64,000 nucleotides of DNA, taken from the IMG/VR virus record IMGVR_UViG_3300040771_000271, positions 62,001-126,000 of that record; one strand, given 5' to 3'. Within the stretch, counting starts at the first letter, position 1. Every line of letters starts with the position of its first letter. The stretch is from a virus. Below the pieces are notes generated by a model that searched no databases, was not told where the DNA came from, and saw only the letters and a list, made by a program, of their open reading frames with translations. Both the position numbers and the translations under genes were made by a program. Below are positions 3,990-61,992 of the stretch, piece by piece.

Positions 3990-6560
3990 TCTAAAACCAA
4001 TAACCTTATCGCAGCATTTACAGTAACTACGGCACAAAACATAGATCAAATTACAGGAAAAACTGGTGGTGATACCTATGCAATAAATGGAGGTACATTA
4101 ACTATAGATAATGACAGTAGAACAGGTTTAAACCAAACGACTTCTACAAGTTTAGGGAGTATAACTCTATCTGCTTCTTTGGGTGGAGTGGTAAATATTG
4201 ACGGTACTGCTATATGGATGATTCCGTTTACAGCAGGAACAGGAAACGTACCCGCATTTAATACAGTTATTAGTAATGGTTCTGGAAGTGGTAAATTAAT
4301 TGGAGTTCATGCTACACTTGCTTCGGCTTCTACGGCTTCGGGTGCTGTAATGCCCGCAACAGGCTTTTTAAGAGTTAAGCAAAAAACAGGAACGTACATA
4401 GCAGGAGCTTTAACAGGTATAGGAGCTACTGCAGGTGATGCAGGGCGTATTGGATGGATAGAAATCGTTGGTGACGAAGCAAGTACTATAAACGCTAACC
4501 GTTTAGGAGTTTATAATTCTAATGGTGCTTGGTATGAAGTAGGTACGACTTCGGGAGTTTCTAACCAAACTATGCAAATTCCTAACAACGGTTTGCAAAG
4601 ATATTGTGGTGGAGTTTACATAGAAAAAACTGTAGGTAGTAATGATTTTGAATTCTATCCGAATAACGGGACAAACACAACAACAGGTACAGAAGCTACT
4701 AGAGGAAAGCTAGTTTGGATTGACGCCACGGGACTTGTGAGAATAGGAAACTCTGGTGCTGCTACAAACGGCTTTACTCCAATAGCAGGGTTAAAAGTAG
4801 TTGTTGGGAATATATTTTTTGAGAATTGCACCGTTGCCGCAAGAACAGCGAACGTAATACCTAGTGCTACATTAGCTACAAGATATGATTTTACTACTAC
4901 AGGTGGAGGAGTTGTGAATATTACAAAATCAACCTACGCTTGGTATTTATCATGCGCTCAAGCTTATGCCGTAAATATTTCAGACTCTTCATTTATAGAC
5001 TCAATATTTCTATCAGAAATAGCAACCGCTATGACTTTTAGCAAAGTTGGAGTTGGGAACAAACCAACGACTCCATTACTTACATCACCACTAACAATGA
5101 CTTTTTGCTTTGCAGGAGGAACATTTACAGACTGTGTTTGGCAAAGAGTTTCTATGGCTGCTTCAGGTGCGCACACAAACACTTTATCAGATTGCTCAGG
5201 ATTTGATTTTGTAAGAGATAAAATAGTTGCGGGAGTTATTAGAGCAAATGCAACAACGTTTTCTGTAAATGCCACACGTATTAAAAATTGTACTTGGACG
5301 ACTCCTACGATTATACAAGGAGCTATGACATTTACTACTTGTGACAATATACAAATAACAAACACAATATACTGTGAAGCGATTTCGGGAACCACATTGG
5401 CAACTCAAGCAGGTTACGTATGGAGTTTAAGTACGAATACAATAAACTGTAAAATATCTGGATTAACAATGCCTGTTTTGAACACGCAACCTTTTACGGG
5501 ACTTTTGCAATTGACAACAGGTTGTTCAAATAACAAGCTTAGAAGTATCGGTACAAGAGCTGTGCCAATAAGTATGGGAACAGTAAATAACTGTGGTTTA
5601 ATTTACACAATAGTTTCAGCTTGTTTTGACACTAAAATTCAACGAGTTTACGTAAGTAACACAAGAACAGGTATTATGACAGGGGATAACTCTTCAAAAG
5701 GTCTTGTAGAAGAAAATGTATTTGGAGATTACGCAGATGCCGTCGACGTTATGGCGGTTCTGAACATGGAGCGTAAAGGAATGGGAGGTACGGGTGCATT
5801 AAGTGGACAAGTATCTGTTTATGGAACACATTGGTTAAATTGTTTTACTTCAGCAACAGCAGGTAGAATAGCGGTTCTTATGAACGAACCTACGGCAGAA
5901 ACAGCTACACAAGTTACACTAACAAATGGAGCAGCGTTCACTTCTGGGGGAAGTTTGTACATGCCTATTATTGGACATAAAGTGTTATTTGAAACTCCTA
6001 GTTACATAATTGGTCACAACTCCTTTACGAATACTGCTTTAATAATGGCAGGAGGAACAGCAACAAACTATACATATAGGTATCAAATAGATAAAGGAGC
6101 AGGTTTTGGAGCGTTCAGTGCAGTTTTAACAGCGACAACGTTAGCTACGGCGTTAAGCGGAGAAACAGCAATAAACCCTAGTGTAGGAATTAAATTAAGG
6201 TTAGAAATTACCACTTCTGTTACCAATGCAACCGCAATAACAAGTGTGTTTTTAACAACAGTAAGTTCAACAACTTCTCAAGATTTTCAATACCCTTTAG
6301 ATACATTTAAGCTAACGTTTAGTGGAATAGTTAACGGTTCAGACGTGGTTATACTGCAAGCAGGTACGGATACGGTTTTAGGACAAGTCGACCAAAATAG
6401 CGTAAGTACTTGGGATTACATTTATGAAACGCCAACCAACGTAGATATTTTTGTATCAAAAGCAGGATTTGTTCCATTTTACATTAGAAATTTTACACTA
6501 CAATCTTCAAACGCAACTTTACCAATAGCACAAATAATAGATAGAAATTATATAACTTAA
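3990..6560 (+). CDS. tail fibre / appendage protein, start codon unclear
   Basis: The uninterrupted frame runs from 3990 to 6560. The first conventional-looking start is a TTG at 4179, but the 63 codons before it read like protein (IDQITGKTGG, then a glycine/threonine-rich beta segment) and blend smoothly into the downstream part. Directly before 3990 is an in-frame TAA at 3987, and no ATG exists between. The product (793 aa from the TTG) is rich in Gly, Thr, Ser and Asn with short repeated strands, typical of a beta-helical tail fibre or tailspike-like protein. It may start at a non-AUG codon, or an ATG has been lost. The fibre role is inferred from composition and neighbours. Confidence 0.65.
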   Translation, partial: SKTNNLIAAFTVTTAQNIDQITGKTGGDTYAINGGTLTIDNDSRTGLNQTTSTSLGSITLSASLGGVVNIDGTAIWMIPFTAGTGNVPAFNTVISNGSGSGKLIGVHATLASASTASGAVMPATGFLRVKQKTGTYIAGALTGIGATAGDAGRIGWIEIVGDEASTINANRLGVYNSNGAWYEVGTTSGVSNQTMQIPNNGLQRYCGGVYIEKTVGSNDFEFYPNNGTNTTTGTEATRGKLVWIDATGLVRIGNSGAATNGFTPIAGLKVVVGNIFFENCTVAARTANVIPSATLATRYDFTTTGGGVVNITKSTYAWYLSCAQAYAVNISDSSFIDSIFLSEIATAMTFSKVGVGNKPTTPLLTSPLTMTFCFAGGTFTDCVWQRVSMAASGAHTNTLSDCSGFDFVRDKIVAGVIRANATTFSVNATRIKNCTWTTPTIIQGAMTFTTCDNIQITNTIYCEAISGTTLATQAGYVWSLSTNTINCKISGLTMPVLNTQPFTGLLQLTTGCSNNKLRSIGTRAVPISMGTVNNCGLIYTIVSACFDTKIQRVYVSNTRTGIMTGDNSSKGLVEENVFGDYADAVDVMAVLNMERKGMGGTGALSGQVSVYGTHWLNCFTSATAGRIAVLMNEPTAETATQVTLTNGAAFTSGGSLYMPIIGHKVLFETPSYIIGHNSFTNTALIMAGGTATNYTYRYQIDKGAGFGAFSAVLTATTLATALSGETAINPSVGIKLRLEITTSVTNATAITSVFLTTVSSTTSQDFQYPLDTFKLTFSGIVNGSDVVILQAGTDTVLGQVDQNSVSTWDYIYETPTNVDIFVSKAGFVPFYIRNFTLQSSNATLPIAQIIDRNYIT

Positions 6561-8607: not shown

Positions 8608-9912
8608 ATGGCGTATATCTTTAATGGAATAACTAAAATAATAACTTTTGATGTAAGCACAATAACTGTTGATGTTAGAGATTTGTGGAGCAGATATATT
8701 GAATGGTTATTAACTTCAGATAATTCTAAATACTTATTAGCTATGAGGAACGTTGGAGGAGACCCACTGCCAGGAGCTAAAGAATTAGGAATTAGTTATT
8801 TTATGATTAATGGTTGGAAAATAAAACCTTTTGAAGAAAGTCAAGTTTTAACAGTTAATGGTAATCTATATTCGGAAGATGGGTCAAGCCCTTACGCACC
8901 TGTTTTAGGAGCTTTTAATGTAACTATTTTAAGTTCAGTTTCAAATTTAGTAGATAGTACTGTACAACAATTACCTGAAATAGAGTACGCTTCTTACAAT
9001 GGAGGAGTTACTATAGATGCAGTAAATGGTACAAATAGTTCGACATATCCATTTGGAACACCTTTATACCCTTGTAAAACAACTTCAAATTCTTATGCTA
9101 TAAGACTTGCTAGGGGATTTAAGAAGATATATTTACGTAGTGATCTAAATTTAGTTGGAATTCCAGATGGGATACTTAATGGATTAGATATTATAGGAGA
9201 AACGGGAAATAGAAAATACACACTTACATTTAATAATGTACTAGTAACAGATTGTAAAGCTACTAACTTAGCAGTAACTGGTGTTTTTAAACAAGGGTCT
9301 ACAGCACAAGCTGTGGATTGTGAGATATACGATTCTGTGGACGTGGATTTAAGAGCAACTAACAGTAGTTTAAAATCAGGAGTTTATGCAAATACTAATC
9401 TCACAAATTGTATATTAGAGGGAGATATTAGTATAAAACCTGGAGGAAATATGAGTGGTACAGGCATTGTTTTTGAAGGAGATTTAACAACTATAAATAT
9501 GTTAAGTCAACCATCAACTGTTTCATTAGATGTAGATTCAGGATATTTTAAATTAAAAAATGCTATTGTAGGATCTCTAGCTGAATTTAATCTAAGAGGT
9601 GGGGAAGTAGAAATTGATACTACTTGTACAGGAGGAGAGTATTATTTAGAAGGATATGGAACTTTATATAATAATGGAACAATGACTGAAAAAGGTAATC
9701 ATTTACTAGCTTTAGAAACTATACCAATTAATGTTTGGAGTAATCAAAACGCCATAGATCAAACAACTAAAATAGATGAACTTCATAAAGTAGGAGGACT
9801 TGATTCAGAAAATCCAGCCACAACTACAGCTAATGAAATTTCAGTAGGAAGTATCACTATAGACATTACAGGAGACGGAGAAACTTCAACAACATTTACA
9901 AGAAATGATTAG
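8608..9912 (+). CDS. tail appendage protein with beta-helix-like C-terminus
   Basis: 434 aa. The first 110 residues (ITVDVRDLWSRYIEW, then LTSDNSKYL and INGWKIKP) match a head domain I recognise from tail-appendage proteins encoded in many phages and prophages, usually followed by a variable C-terminal part. Here the rest is a repetitive series of short strands compatible with a beta-helix. It overlaps the next gene by 8 bases. The likely site is the distal tail, perhaps as an adaptor for receptor-binding parts; that role is inference. Confidence 0.65.
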   Translation: MAYIFNGITKIITFDVSTITVDVRDLWSRYIEWLLTSDNSKYLLAMRNVGGDPLPGAKELGISYFMINGWKIKPFEESQVLTVNGNLYSEDGSSPYAPVLGAFNVTILSSVSNLVDSTVQQLPEIEYASYNGGVTIDAVNGTNSSTYPFGTPLYPCKTTSNSYAIRLARGFKKIYLRSDLNLVGIPDGILNGLDIIGETGNRKYTLTFNNVLVTDCKATNLAVTGVFKQGSTAQAVDCEIYDSVDVDLRATNSSLKSGVYANTNLTNCILEGDISIKPGGNMSGTGIVFEGDLTTINMLSQPSTVSLDVDSGYFKLKNAIVGSLAEFNLRGGEVEIDTTCTGGEYYLEGYGTLYNNGTMTEKGNHLLALETIPINVWSNQNAIDQTTKIDELHKVGGLDSENPATTTANEISVGSITIDITGDGETSTTFTRND

Positions 9913-27998: not shown

Positions 27999-28184
27999 TT
28001 ACATTATATTTATTTTTAATTCTATTAAATCACTTGGTTTTGCCACTCTATACTTCTTTACATTATGCCAAGTAAAAGTATAAGGACAATCATCCATAAA
28101 TTCATACTCAATTTCAACCATAATATTAAAACCGAAGAGCCTCTTTTTAATATACCAATTTCCTGTTAATTTTACATCTGTCAT
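27999..28184 (-). CDS. small hypothetical protein
   Basis: 61 aa, beta-rich (NWYIKKRLFGFNIMVEIEYEF). Two-base spacing to the upstream gene. Not recognised. Confidence 0.5.
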   Translation of the reverse strand: MTDVKLTGNWYIKKRLFGFNIMVEIEYEFMDDCPYTFTWHNVKKYRVAKPSDLIELKINIM

Positions 28185-28186
28185 AA

Positions 28187-28375
28187 TTAATAACTTTCTA
28201 ATACTATTGTTTTAAAATCACGTTCTCTTTGCTCTAACTTAGCTTGTTCTAAAGTATCAAATGTCCCTAAGTGAATACAACAGTTCTCTACAAGTTGACT
28301 TCCAACCTCTCCAACATAAGTTAATGGATTAAAATACTTTCTTTCCAATTGAAATAAACTATATCCCATCTTCAT
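28187..28375 (-). CDS. small hypothetical protein
   Basis: 62 aa; the pattern HLGTFDTLEQAKLEQRER suggests a short beta-hairpin plus helix. Overlaps the upstream gene by 17 bases; an internal ATG at 28369 is also possible. Not recognised. Confidence 0.5.
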   Translation of the reverse strand: MKMGYSLFQLERKYFNPLTYVGEVGSQLVENCCIHLGTFDTLEQAKLEQRERDFKTIVLESY

Positions 28376-28592
28376 ATATTTCGAGCAGTTCTTCCGTTGT
28401 TTTACATGTAGGTATTAAGTCTCGCGTCCTGTATTTTCCATCCGAATATGTTAAAGTATTTTCCGCAACAAAAACTGAAAAAGAAACTGCAAATTCCCTA
28501 ACTATAAGAGAAGCAATAGTAACATCTGTTTCTGTATTATCATCTGATAAATGTCCTAATAAACAATGTCTTAATTTGTCTTCTAATTTCAT
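28359..28592 (-). CDS. small hypothetical protein
   Basis: 77 aa, mixed alpha/beta, no recognised motif. ATGA-type overlap with the upstream gene. Confidence 0.5.
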   Translation of the reverse strand: MKLEDKLRHCLLGHLSDDNTETDVTIASLIVREFAVSFSVFVAENTLTYSDGKYRTRDLIPTCKTTEELLEIYEDGI

Positions 28593-28810
28593 AATTTTTT
28601 TATTTTAATTTGATGATTAAAACTGTTTCCATTACCACTAGCCATCAAAGAATAATTTTCTTCAAAGGCATTTGTAACTTCACAATAACCTCCGTCTTGT
28701 AAAGTGATTTCTACTAATTCTTCCATTTGATTTTCTAACCAATCATTTAAAGTGAAAGTATTATCATGATGATATTCTTTTGTCTCCCAATAAAAAGTAC
28801 CTGTTTTCAT
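28589..28810 (-). CDS. small hypothetical protein
   Basis: 73 aa, acidic, not recognised. Overlaps the next gene by 4 bases. Confidence 0.5.
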   Translation of the reverse strand: MKTGTFYWETKEYHHDNTFTLNDWLENQMEELVEITLQDGGYCEVTNAFEENYSLMASGNGNSFNHQIKIKKL

Positions 28811-28813
28811 AAA

Positions 28814-28912
28814 TTATACTAATGTTGTTGCGCCAAAAATTACTAAACAAATAAAGAATATAATAATCCATATTGGCAATCCTTTATTACCCTCTTCTCC
28901 TACGTATGGCAT
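28814..28912 (-). CDS. single-pass membrane microprotein
   Basis: 32 aa: a polar start (MPYVGEEGNKG) followed by one transmembrane helix (LPIWIIIFFICLVIFGATTLV). First frame after the promoter at 28943 and 3 bases before the next gene. Composition strongly supports translation; function unknown. Confidence 0.55.
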   Translation of the reverse strand: MPYVGEEGNKGLPIWIIIFFICLVIFGATTLV

Positions 28913-28942
28913 AATTAAATCTCTTTTATATTAATAACTTTA

Positions 28943-28973
28943 CAAATATAACGCTTTCTAACTTCTTGTGCAA
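28943..28973 (-). promoter_or_regulatory. Bacteroidota-type promoter
   Basis: Minus strand TTG (28973-28971), 20 bases, TATATTTG (28950-28943). Feeds the leftward small-gene operon starting at 28912. Confidence 0.85.
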
Positions 28974-29047
28974 GTAAATCTGAATATTTTTTTATTTCTA
29001 ACTTTTTTTCTCGGCAAAGTAAAAAATACTTCTGTTTAAAATCCTTA

Positions 29048-56334: not shown

Positions 56335-56397
56335 AGGACTTTATTTTAGTGTTGAGTTACCACATTAGTTACGTGTATGCACAAGTTACGGCAAATA
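56335..56397 (-). other. cassette-type spacer (E5)
   Basis: Directly after the stop of the gene at 56398, the minus strand reads GCCGTAACTTGTGCATACACGTAAC, with a short GTG-TAT-GCAC hairpin and two TAAC elements. It resembles the other spacers in this region but lacks a clear GTTAG partner. Confidence 0.4.
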
Positions 56398-56796
56398 CTA
56401 TGTTTTGTTTTCATAAGTCAATTCAGTTCCTGTGAGTGCGAAATATAAATTTTGTAGCTGATGAACTGTTTTTATTTTAATAAACTCAAATGATTCAAAC
56501 ATAAATTCCTCTACATCCTCATTACACATATGAATTTTTACATCTCCAAATTTAAAAGCTTTGCTCGCTTGTATTTCTTGTGGGTCAGAAGTAAAGTAGC
56601 TTTCTGCATTAAATTTGCGTAGCCATTCTTCTGTTAACGGTATTGGTTTAATATCTTCATATAAAATAATTACTCTACAAGGTCCAGAAGCAACTGCTCT
56701 TTTTTCTAATAACTCTAATATTTGTTCAGTTCTTGGTATTCCGCTTCCTAAGTCTAATCTTGAAATAAAATTCCCAATTCTTAATTCATTTTTCAT
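56398..56796 (-). CDS. conserved phage protein of cassette unit
   Basis: 132 aa. MKNELRIGNFI at the start, IKPIPLTEEWLRKF in the middle and HQLQNLYFALTGTELT near the end are the marks of a family I have often seen in Bacteroidota phages and integrated elements. No function known. Bordered on both sides by folded spacers. Confidence 0.7.
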   Translation of the reverse strand: MKNELRIGNFISRLDLGSGIPRTEQILELLEKRAVASGPCRVIILYEDIKPIPLTEEWLRKFNAESYFTSDPQEIQASKAFKFGDVKIHMCNEDVEEFMFESFEFIKIKTVHQLQNLYFALTGTELTYENKT

Positions 56797-56830
56797 AACA
56801 ATATTTTTAGTTTAATAATCCGTACTTGCC

Positions 56831-56915
56831 CTAACATACGCTTGTAGCTATATGCAGAAACTCCCTGCTTTTATTCACGATTGCGGTGGCATACAGCTAC
56901 AAGCTTTTCCGTTAG
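56831..56915 (-). repeat. attC-like folded spacer (E4)
   Basis: CTAAC (56831-56835), GCTTGTAGCTATATGC (56840-56855), a 33-base centre, GCATACAGCTACAAGC (56889-56904), GTTAG (56911-56915). The two 16-base arms pair with one mismatch; the CTAAC/GTTAG outer boxes pair, separated from the arms by unequal spacers. On the minus strand it begins 8 bases after a stop codon. This is the R''-L''-loop-L'-R' architecture of integron recombination sites. Confidence 0.6.
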
Positions 56916-56923
56916 TAGCAATG

Positions 56924-57172
56924 TTAGAAACCCTGTTGACGAAGACGATATTCTTTACAAAGCCTACAATATTTATTAAGGAAAATATGACCACATTCTT
57001 TTTCTTCTATTTCTTTTTGACTATCTTCTACTTTTTCGACTACTTTGTAGGTTTCATAATCTAAATTTGTCTCTTTAACTATCTTATTTTTTAAGCTAAA
57101 AATAAACACAGCTACTAACAGCACATAAGCGCAAGCAATTAATTGGGTATTGAATTTAAATTTTGTTTTCAT
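56924..57172 (-). CDS. membrane-anchored Cys protein of cassette unit
   Basis: 82 aa: one N-terminal transmembrane helix at about 8-26, a charged helical stem, and a Cys/His end (ECGHIFLNKYCRLCKEY), a probable zinc knuckle. Followed on the minus strand by spacer E4. Confidence 0.6.
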   Translation of the reverse strand: MKTKFKFNTQLIACAYVLLVAVFIFSLKNKIVKETNLDYETYKVVEKVEDSQKEIEEKECGHIFLNKYCRLCKEYRLRQQGF

Positions 57173-57184
57173 TTTGTTGTTATT

Positions 57185-57257
57185 TATAATTAATATAATT
57201 ATTGTTTTTTGTCAGCAATTGCCTTCGCCTATGTGCGAAACGTTACCAGTAATGCTA
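57185..57257 (-). other. cassette-type spacer (E3)
   Basis: Minus strand after the stop of the gene at 57255: ACTGGTAACGTTTCGC, ACATAG, GCGAAGGC, AATTGCTGAC. TTCGC/GCGAA forms a stem; the TAACG box comes first, the GTTAG-type box is absent or changed. Confidence 0.4.
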
Positions 57258-57479
57258 CAGTAGCGGTAAAATATAATCTGATTTATTGAAACATTCACTT
57301 ATGAATTTCGCATGTCTTAACGCTTCTGATTTTTCTGTAGTATCAATTATTTCATTACTTGTAGTTAAATATGGTATTCTTGCTATTTTATATTTTGCAC
57401 CTAAACTTGTGCCTATTATATTCCAAGCATTCTTTGATTCAGAATGAACAACCTTTGTATTTATATTTGGATTTTCCAT
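57255..57479 (-). CDS. conserved small protein of cassette unit
   Basis: 74 aa. TKVVHSESKNAWNIIG, GAKYKIARIPY and AKFISECFNKSDYI match a short family very common in Bacteroidota phages and plasmids; function unknown. Confidence 0.7.
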   Translation of the reverse strand: MENPNINTKVVHSESKNAWNIIGTSLGAKYKIARIPYLTTSNEIIDTTEKSEALRHAKFISECFNKSDYILPLL

Positions 57480-57482
57480 AGT

Positions 57483-57779
57483 TTATTTAGTAACATCATT
57501 AAAAAAATCAGGATAAATATTTTTTATCATTTCTTCAGCATCATCTTGCATTTTAGTCCCTTTAACAGCAATCCATAAAGCATTTGATAAATAAGATAAA
57601 TGATTAACACTGCCTCTTGTTAGTGGATTAATTAAACTTTTAAATTCATAATTAAGATTGAACATTTTACCCTCTTTTGTCTTATTAAATTTTGATAGCC
57701 AATCATCATGAGAAACACTACTGGTAACACCTGCTATACTCAATGCCTCGTTTTCGGTATTATTAACTTCTGTTTTCAT
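57483..57779 (-). CDS. hypothetical protein of cassette unit
   Basis: 98 aa, helical. Not recognised. Immediately precedes the 74-aa gene (3-base gap), so these two share one unit. Confidence 0.55.
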   Translation of the reverse strand: MKTEVNNTENEALSIAGVTSSVSHDDWLSKFNKTKEGKMFNLNYEFKSLINPLTRGSVNHLSYLSNALWIAVKGTKMQDDAEEMIKNIYPDFFNDVTK

Positions 57780-57861
57780 AAGTTCGTTTTTTTTAGTTAG
57801 AATAATTCGTTTTCATAAATCGGCACTAAGTATAGCACCATCCGTTAGGGATAACCGCCTA
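57780..57861 (-). other. cassette-type spacer (E2)
   Basis: Follows the stop of the gene at 57859. On the plus strand it contains CCGTTAGGGATAACCGCC, so the GTTAGGGATA box of the other spacers occurs here in reverse. ATCC-CTAAC-GGAT forms a small hairpin; a longer arm pair is not obvious. Confidence 0.4.
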
Positions 57862-58140
57862 TTGGAGTAGATTAAAATTACCGATAGACTCTCTTACATC
57901 TTTGTAATATGCTTTTTTATCGTGATTTAAGCACCTTGCATTGTAAGAATCACTACCTTGTTTATTATGAAGTTCTTCTCCTAGTTCCGTGAGTGCTGAA
58001 ACAACTTCATCCACTATCAAAAATGCTTTTCTTTTTAAATCTGTTTTAGCATAATTTGAACAATTTTCCCATAATGCTTTTGATATTTTACCGTTGTTGA
58101 CTTTTTCTAAAATCTCTTTTGCTTTTTCTAAATGTGTCAT
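57859..58140 (-). CDS. conserved small protein of cassette unit
   Basis: 93 aa, helical. MTHLEKAKEILEKV at the start, KRKAFLIVDEVVSAL in the middle and YYKDVRESIGNF at the end match a frequent small Bacteroidota phage family without known role. Confidence 0.7.
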   Translation of the reverse strand: MTHLEKAKEILEKVNNGKISKALWENCSNYAKTDLKRKAFLIVDEVVSALTELGEELHNKQGSDSYNARCLNHDKKAYYKDVRESIGNFNLLQ

Positions 58141-58180
58141 TTTTATAAATTTTGATTGATTAGTATTTCGTGGTATATCC

Positions 58181-58259
58181 CTAACACACGATAAGGTCTA
58201 TTTGCCGAATCTACCCGCCACAACCTATAACAGCTAGTAGCAAGGCTACGATTACGTTA
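58181..58259 (-). repeat. attC-like folded spacer (E1)
   Basis: Plus-strand CCCTAACACACG (CTAAC at 58181) to GTTAT at 58256-58260; on the minus strand TAACG follows the stop of the 75-aa gene and GTTAGGG closes the element. It shares CCCTAACAYACG with spacer E4. Inside are GTAGC-CTT-GCTAC and an ATAGGT/ACCTTAT pairing. Arms less perfect than in E4. Confidence 0.5.
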
Positions 58260-58484
58260 TTTATGATATTTAGATTTTGGTTTTTCAAAGTAATTTCCAT
58301 TTTTATCAGTAATAGTAATCAATGGCTCTATAACTTCATTTTTAAGCAACCATTCACTTCTCATTACATCTTTAATTTCGTGATTATTAGTCACTATTTC
58401 TATTCCTCTTTCTATTTCTTGCATTGATTTTGCTATTTGCGCTCCCATAGGAATATCTGCGCCTACAATTAATACTTTTTTCAT
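58257..58484 (-). CDS. hypothetical protein of cassette unit
   Basis: 75 aa. Starts MKKVLIVGADIPMGAQIAKSM, which reads like a glycine-rich nucleotide-binding start, but the protein is too short for a full domain. Followed by spacer E1. Confidence 0.55.
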   Translation of the reverse strand: MKKVLIVGADIPMGAQIAKSMQEIERGIEIVTNNHEIKDVMRSEWLLKNEVIEPLITITDKNGNYFEKPKSKYHK

Positions 58485-60942: not shown

Positions 60943-61992
60943 TTATTTTGGAAAGAAATCTTCTAACCAATTATTTTTTCTAGCCCATCCAAAAGCTCCG
61001 CTCGAACCTATTTTAAATTTAAACCTATTTGTGTATTTTTTTGCCTCTGTTTTACAATTCTCGTAATTCCAATAATTTCTTGATTTTCTAGTATCTATCA
61101 TATGTGAACAAATTTCCTCCGCCCATCCTTTTGCAAAGGCTTTGCTGTAAATACTATTAGCTTCTTTTATAAATTGAGAACGTAAAGAGTATTTTAATGC
61201 TTTTTCATGGCATCTTTCTTTAGTCCAATAATTGTTAAGTTTTTTAAGTTCAACCATATGAGAACATACCAAACCTATCCATTTATTTTTTAAACACGCA
61301 TTATAAGCATTTTCATTGTTTAAAATAAATTCTTTTTTAGTAGTATATTTTAACGCCTCTAATCTACATATTTCAAAAGTCCATTTTATTTTTCCTCCTC
61401 CTAATCCCCCTGCTTTATTTTTATTAAGGATGCACTTACCTAATTTTTTATATTCTTCGACTATTAAATCCTCCAATTCGGAAGCGTCCTCTTTTGAATA
61501 AAGTGTATCACTGATTAACTCAAAAACAGGTTTACTGTTAGTTTCTAACATATGTTTATAAACTGAACTTTTTTCATCTGATAAATGGCTATTAAACCTC
61601 TTTTCAGGATTACACGTTAAACCAATATAAACACAATCATCATAAAAAATTGCCTTATAAATATACCTTTTTTGTATATTACCTAAAGGAATCATATGAC
61701 TACATATTTCTTCAAGCCATCCACTTCTATGTGCAACAACATAAGCAGAAGGGTTGTTTTCTTGAAAATCTTTCTTGTGTTTATACTTACTTGCTTCTTT
61801 CGCACAATTTTCTTTGTTCCAATACCTATTAGGTTTTCTACCTTCAACCATATGAGAACAAATCTCATTTAACCATCCTTTTTTATGAGCTATCCTATAA
61901 GCTTGTCCACAAGATTTTAAAAAGTCGATTTTTCTAGTGTATTTTATAGATTCCTGTTTACATAATTCTAAAGTCCATTCAAATTTTACCAT
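60943..61992 (-). CDS. GIY-YIG endonuclease inside a repeat protein
   Basis: 349 aa. Five copies of a roughly 40-residue unit (W-x-E-x-C then EA-KY, F, and GWL-EICSHM) cover residues 4-50, 57-100, 203-248, 256-300 and 306-348. Between copies 2 and 3, residues 111-195, lies a GIY-YIG core: YKAIFYDDCVYIGLT, then PEKRFNSH and a C-terminal glutamate helix. The units probably bind DNA and the core cuts it. An ordinary homing endonuclease function is likely. Confidence 0.8.
   Translation of the reverse strand: MVKFEWTLELCKQESIKYTRKIDFLKSCGQAYRIAHKKGWLNEICSHMVEGRKPNRYWNKENCAKEASKYKHKKDFQENNPSAYVVAHRSGWLEEICSHMIPLGNIQKRYIYKAIFYDDCVYIGLTCNPEKRFNSHLSDEKSSVYKHMLETNSKPVFELISDTLYSKEDASELEDLIVEEYKKLGKCILNKNKAGGLGGGKIKWTFEICRLEALKYTTKKEFILNNENAYNACLKNKWIGLVCSHMVELKKLNNYWTKERCHEKALKYSLRSQFIKEANSIYSKAFAKGWAEEICSHMIDTRKSRNYWNYENCKTEAKKYTNRFKFKIGSSGAFGWARKNNWLEDFFPK

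Follow-up and report, generated by a model that had tools for sequence, protein, structure and literature searches.

Does a run of small genes separated by folded spacers in a phage genome constitute an integron-type cassette array and, if so, which enzyme moves its units? Integrons are known mainly from Proteobacteria, as bacterial platforms. The locus that raises this question lies in a stretch of 64,000 nucleotides (hereafter the window), positions 62001-126000 of the 129,922-base viral record IMGVR_UViG_3300040771_000271 (G000), a 130-kb phage whose host group is Bacteroidota and whose PHROGs matches in the window include a virion structural protein, a DNA transfer protein, and ribonucleotide reductase. 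A first-pass annotation of the DNA had proposed attC-bounded cassettes, captured from host integrons or moved by a host integrase. We conclude, with a probability of about 0.87, that 56372-58260 is an integron-type cassette array without an integrase in a Bacteroidota phage, and that its units are moved at a TAAC(G) box by an enzyme supplied in trans.

The region holds small genes on the minus strand. Much of the initial description of the spacers between them was accurate: all five share a TAAC(G) box after the stop codon, at a distance of at most about 15 bases from the upstream stop in 5/5; the spacer 56831-56915 possesses outer CTAAC and GTTAG boxes and two 16-base arms with one mismatch around a 33-base loop; and the sequence CCCTAACAYACG is truly common to this spacer and to 58181-58259. 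When the whole record was scanned mechanically for AAC..GTT boxes around complementary arms, the hairpin at 56831-56915 ranked first (score 23.2) and that at 57115-57246 second among all 129,922 bases.

Hairpins of the same anatomy recur in many viral loci that encode relatives of the cassette proteins. Their shared plan, about 128 nt long, comprises TAAC, a 5-nt spacer (GTTTT), a long arm, a loop, the returning arm, a 1-nt spacer, and GTTA. In an alignment of 15 such hairpins from other viral contigs, none from the window (alignment A3), 82.6% of the pairs in the proposed stem are standard, and covariation scores 0.499 versus 0.167 after shuffling. The attC covariance-model search proposed at first pass was run with a model of our own, R1, built on viral sites outside the window and applied to 3.1 kb with filters off (the default filters miss the window sites), and it returned matches far above background, at 66.3 and 42.3 bits (Table 1). 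The window sites comprise two that are firm, one that is probable (a short-loop outlier with other spacers), and one that is doubtful; the two strong and the one probable site lie within 1.1 kb, as in a cassette array or a cluster of attC sites without integrase (CALIN). Two further R1 sites occur beyond the window, one in G000 itself (C1:157-284, 49 bits) and one past its end, at 955-1085 of a twin contig (42.4 bits). Rfam yielded nothing at gathering score in the window, with chance miRNA matches only in the region, and in the folded sites there was no clear bias of G-T versus A-C mismatches that would bear on strand selection.

The limits of the sites had to be redrawn. Initially placed within the spacers, the two best-supported sites run on into the coding start of the next gene: 57115-57246(-) spans spacer 57173-57254 together with the first ~19 codons of gene 56924-57172, and 57724-57848(-) spans spacer 57780-57858 together with the start of gene 57483-57779. 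Spacer 58181-58259 is not convincing as a site, the stretch 58227-58260 reaching just 12.3 bits (E=0.12), and the TAACG there overlaps the stop codon of gene 58257-58484.

Table 1. Sites, units, and cassette genes of the array, in window coordinates; bits and E-values refer to R1
Feature	Position	Strand	Evidence or remark
Doubtful or degenerate site, start of U1	58227..58260	-	12.3 bits, E=0.12
Unit U1	58259 to 57848	-	one gene
U1 cassette gene, 93 aa	57859..58140	-	ORF; no confident family
attC-like site of U2	57724..57848	-	42.3 bits, E=1e-8; ATG of gene 57483-57779 in loop
Unit U2	57847 to 57246	-	two genes
U2 first gene, 98 aa	57483..57779	-	67% identity to a cassette protein in G149/G150; start codon within attC
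U2 second gene, 74 aa	57255..57479	-	phrog_38014, E=1e-25
attC-like site of U3	57115..57246	-	66.3 bits, E=2e-14; second-best hairpin of the phage; ATG of gene 56924-57172 in loop
Unit U3	57245 to 56915	-	one gene
U3 cassette gene, 82 aa	56924..57172	-	ORF overlapping site; start codon and ~19 codons within attC
Probable short-loop attC-like hairpin of U4	56831..56915	-	top-ranked hairpin in the phage; just 15.1 bits, E=0.026; spacers of 6 and 4 nt
Unit U4	56914 to 56388	-	one gene; attI-like end comes next
U4 cassette gene, 132 aa	56398..56796	-	phrog_10066, E=2e-19
attI-like end of array	56372..56388	-	CCGTAAC/TTGTGCATACACG within spacer 56335-56397

The last of the five spacers, 56335-56397, had been grouped with the attC-type spacers and is instead the attI-like end of the array. 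Scored with a matrix derived from 19 chromosomal attI sites, 56372-56388 reaches 12.7 bits, inside the training range of 8.7-21.2, and ranks 7 of the 5165 AAC positions in the phage. Judged by its sequence, it is probably a degenerate attI; clear attI sites are found in the chromosomal and phage arrays of its relatives.

An integrase beside the array, the mark of a complete integron, is absent from G000 and present in related phages and genomes. The absence of an integron integrase from the window, noted from the start, extends to any tyrosine recombinase or integrase in the window, the remainder of G000, and the first 12 kb of the twin contig, IMGVR_UViG_3300040770_000293, which is 100% identical to G000 over the compared stretches. 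Since G000 has no recombinase of its own, cassette movement must happen in trans. The twin (L182 1-5789) runs about 5.8 kb past the end of G000 and bears the additional site mentioned above, so that G000 is incomplete at that end. Separately, two segments of the window, 61215-61393 and 61809-61987, share about 69% identity and are possibly a tandemly duplicated gene segment.

No relative of G000 with an empty site turned up in the viral collection, and gain and loss of units are therefore demonstrated in other phages only. They are seen in a pair of phage contigs, G149 (locus L053; with terminase and portal genes) and G150 (L052), that are 99.92% identical over 10,519 bases outside the array. 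Their arrays consist of near-identical blocks with whole extra units in between, and 6/6 block junctions fall in TAAC(G) directly after a gene; the breakpoint comparison in related phages that had been suggested at first pass has in this way uncovered single-unit differences with junctions at the expected box. Both arrays terminate in TAAC/TACGTAATATACGC. Because the junctions lie just after a gene, the mobile unit in phages is a site plus the gene that follows it, and because the crossovers fall in TAAC(G) after the stop codon, the gene points the opposite way from that of a classical cassette. The notion of a cassette as a gene with a trailing attC, in which the cassette ends in attC, was accordingly dropped for phages, where the site comes first and the crossover box follows the stop. 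No recombinase gene was found on contig G149 or G150, so that the enzyme is either supplied in trans or encoded on an unassembled part of these phages. As to the content of the two arrays, the last cassette gene of G150 (L185 10544-11248) encodes a DNA methylase (PF01555), which fits the methyltransferase cassettes reported in phage CALINs, and a tRNA-gene-like sequence immediately precedes the first site in the array of G149 (L184, reverse complement ~8950-9005).

The cassette genes of the window connect it to these and other phage arrays. Pfam assigns no confident function to the window cassette proteins. The phrog_10066 family, represented in U4, is also found in the cassette arrays of other phages, where 8 viral loci fetched with it carry R1 sites, and the second gene of U2 has a 78% identical copy in a cassette of locus L003. 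The unit in G149/G150 that is homologous to U2 ends GATGTTGCTAAATAA/CATTACTGGTAACG; U2 has the same two ends as the G149 unit, enclosing in addition gene 57255-57479. In the simplest reading of these sequences, this gene would have been added inside an older cassette, between its stop codon and its CATTACTGGTAAC end. An attC swap between U2 and the G149 unit is not claimed, because the leaders may simply diverge fast.

The inverted arrangement of gene and site distinguishes phage from chromosomal units. In Bacteroidota chromosomes, the main ORF lies opposite the TAACG..GTTA strand in 67/77 complete units, the classical order of gene followed by attC, whereas on viral-classed contigs it lies on the site strand in 27/33. 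A second viral set gave 95 inverted units against 12, with 15 lacking an ORF (Fisher versus genomes p=1e-28, computed over related units that are not independent). R1 was trained on phage sites, and these orientation counts rest on ORFs and not on the model. With the ORF on the same strand as the site, attC comes to lie at the 5′ side of its gene; the canonical cassette, with attC at the 3′ end of the gene, is not the arrangement of the window or, in general, of phages, where the gene follows the site. In 50/95 inverted phage units, U2 and U3 of the window being of this kind, the ORF has its first start codon within attC, and translation would begin at this attC-borne codon. A start codon inside attC was also considered as a general rule and dropped: it occurs in 36/171 sites overall versus 9 in the control and is true of about half of the phage units only.

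What enzyme could act on such sites is suggested by the Bacteroidota genomes. R1 sites are present in 62/148 of them, in some as arrays that run along one strand for tens of kilobases (per-genome site counts are lower bounds, with 23 candidates scored per genome). The ends of these arrays carry a tyrosine recombinase of about 350 residues. Searched for with an alignment of four array-end recombinases (A5), this protein is encoded in 51 of the same 148 genomes and occurs together with sites in 41 (Fisher p=4e-12). It lies on the attI side in 19/19 contigs compared, beside a conserved NAAC/TNGTTTATATGCG that forms the last array boundary, that is, attI. The recombinase matches NF040815 (XerA/integron integrase) at 205-226 bits and scores 192-211 bits against TIGR02249 (integron integrase), under the 265-bit cutoff. 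Its alignment with a solved XerA proceeds in one stretch and with IntI4 in two; compared with the integron integrase of Shewanella phage M16-3, it is without insertions of ~23 and ~14 residues, and the IntI-specific insert before the C-terminal catalytic boxes, by which IntI is defined, is absent.

In most chromosomal arrays the recombinase is co-directional with the cassette genes. The chromosomal loci L195, L196, L197, and L198 present the classical layout, with canonical cassettes and a recombinase that diverges from the array. In four chromosomal loci a short recombinase is co-directional; these had been suspected to be of the phage type and turned out to have canonical cassette genes. A contig scan that used two recombinases as queries rested on poor patterns and yielded mostly Clostridium relatives. 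Between the last site and the recombinase of one large chromosomal array, the opposite strand of L131 ~5040-6000 (G058:C1 ~145040-146000) reads like a candidate reverse transcriptase.

A shorter version of the recombinase, of 267-287 residues, has relatives in 80 viral loci. Upstream sequence exceeds 1 kb in 64 of these viral loci; R1 sites occur in 39 of the 64, and 145/150 best sites lie upstream of the recombinase on the same strand, the other five belonging to a separate array in L246. That second array (415-2367), with five sites in the opposite direction, is situated upstream of the usual one. The distance from the last site to the recombinase has a median of 465 bases, and the viral recombinase is usually preceded by NTAAC/TACTATATGTA or a sequence close to it. 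Most contigs are metagenomic; terminase family phrog_2 is matched in 7/22 integrase-bearing ones, and single contigs carry terminase, tail sheath, and portal genes (G152) or portal and major head protein genes (G155). Cultured flavophages seem to have the system as well. Polaribacter phage Leef_1 has R1 sites at ~25983 and ~26594 (one at 39.9 bits, the second weaker) and an integrase at 28136-28999 preceded by an attI-like GCTAAC/GCCCCTATATACGC, and Cellulophaga phage phi18:3 has two sites (~14724, ~16345) near a tyrosine recombinase. Polaribacter phage P12002L gives hairpin-scan matches, yet no R1 match.

The reading that we favor is built on the sites, the array architecture, the unit-wise gain and loss in related phages, attI, the linkage of the recombinase, and the orientation, all observed here. 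Under the proposed mechanism, each unit would consist of an attC-like site, one or two genes, and TAAC, and would be inserted or removed at the TAAC(G) box (read as G^TTA on the opposite strand) by site-specific recombination, beside the attI-like end. The cognate enzyme would be an IntI/XerA-like tyrosine recombinase without the IntI insert, presumably acting on these very sites and on the folded single strand; related phages encode it just downstream of attI, and for G000 a host or a co-infecting phage would have to supply it. The phage attC, placed at the 5′ side of the gene and often containing the start codon, would form the 5′ leader and first codons of that gene.

The main competitor is that the array is a passive relic of a chromosomal integron piece, acquired by illegitimate or homologous recombination. 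The lack of an integrase in G000 and the degenerate state of both the U1 site and the attI-like end fit such an origin, which we nevertheless consider unlikely, as the genes are oriented as in phage arrays and not as in chromosomal ones, two of the window cassette genes belong to phage families with relatives in other phage arrays, and the integrase-less G149/G150 still exchange units. A role for the hairpins as transcription terminators, or as some other kind of RNA element lying between small genes, with no part in recombination, is very improbable: they are intergenic and fold well, and attC sites can serve as weak terminators (PMC9892861), but terminators would not account for invariant TAAC/GTTA boxes with a 5:1 spacer, unit junctions exactly in the box, an adjoining attI and recombinase, or two window sites that include coding sequence. 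Chance has a negligible probability. An AT-rich genome should contain some short boxes and hairpins, some hairpins elsewhere in the phage score fairly high (20.4 at C1:41734), and the U1 site is weak, but chance is refuted for 57115-57246 and 57724-57848 by the E-values of an independent model over 3.1 kb and opposed by 24 dinucleotide shuffles of the record that gave one match of at least 22 in total.

Within the cassette-array reading, the initial proposal of attC-bounded cassettes is well supported by R1 and by the unit junctions, and its order of gene and attC and its site limits are replaced. A recombinase in trans, from the host or a co-infecting phage, is still required for this phage. 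Uptake from host integrons is probably not how cassettes are chiefly acquired: numerous phages have their own integrase and attI, and their gene orientation is rare in chromosomal arrays, which points to a largely phage-specific cassette pool. It seems reasonably probable that Bacteroidota and their phages share an undescribed integron lineage, with an insert-less integrase and a 5:1-spacer attC, in which the phage branch keeps a separate pool of back-to-front cassettes whose recombination site also serves their own gene as 5′ leader and start-codon region. If so, each captured gene would bring its own start and land co-directional with the phage operon. On the present evidence, a type of integron common in Bacteroidota appears to have become a platform on which phages swap genes, cassettes having turned over recently between phages that are nearly identical. 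This offers a mechanism by which phages shuffle small accessory genes, as well as a testable case of a recombination site doubling as coding sequence. The system would probably escape detection tools that depend on the IntI insert or a canonical attC.

The closest precedents are the phage-borne attC clusters without integrase (CALINs) and phage integrons described by Qi 2023 (PMC9892861), including that of Polaribacter phage P12002L; in that study, IntI1 mediated recombination for 5/6 sites tested. The likeness lies in attC-type sites and cassettes carried by phages, often without an integrase and in one case by a Flavobacteriia phage. The site family considered here differs (TAACG, 5:1 spacer, ~128 nt; P12002L is without an R1 match), and the available portion of Qi 2023 (PMC9892861) contains no mention of gene inversion, a start codon in attC, a phage-specific integrase, or natural unit-wise turnover. 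For Bacteroidetes, IntegronFinder 2.0 names Salinibacter ruber as the complete integron found (PMC9024848), and Bacteroidota are without a model in the taxon-specific attC set of Ghaly 2021 (PMC8352920). A literature search, whose coverage stopped short of preprints and most subscription journals, turned up no account of sites of this type, of inverted cassettes in phages, or of arrays of this kind accompanied by an integrase that lacks the insert; all three appear undescribed.

With sedentary chromosomal integrons, the system shares the layout of attI, recombinase, and array, a folded attC with R boxes, the G^TTA crossover, and usually one gene per unit; it departs from them in a recombinase without the IntI insert and in a phage cassette gene that is inverted, with attC at its 5′ side. 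Reverse integrons, such as those of Treponema, provide another parallel, in that the integrase orientation is unlike that of class 1, and in most of the present chromosomal arrays the integrase gene runs in the same direction as the cassette genes. The canonical order of gene and attC within the cassette is, as far as is known, retained in reverse integrons, whereas in the phage arrays the gene itself is inverted. The recombinase resembles XerA in aligning with the solved structure in one stretch, and differs from XerA, XerC, and XerD in that, in Bacteroidota as well as in their phages, it neighbors attI and an array of attC sites. Taken as a whole, the system works as an integron cassette array but lacks two classical features, the orientation of the cassette gene and the IntI insert of the cognate enzyme.
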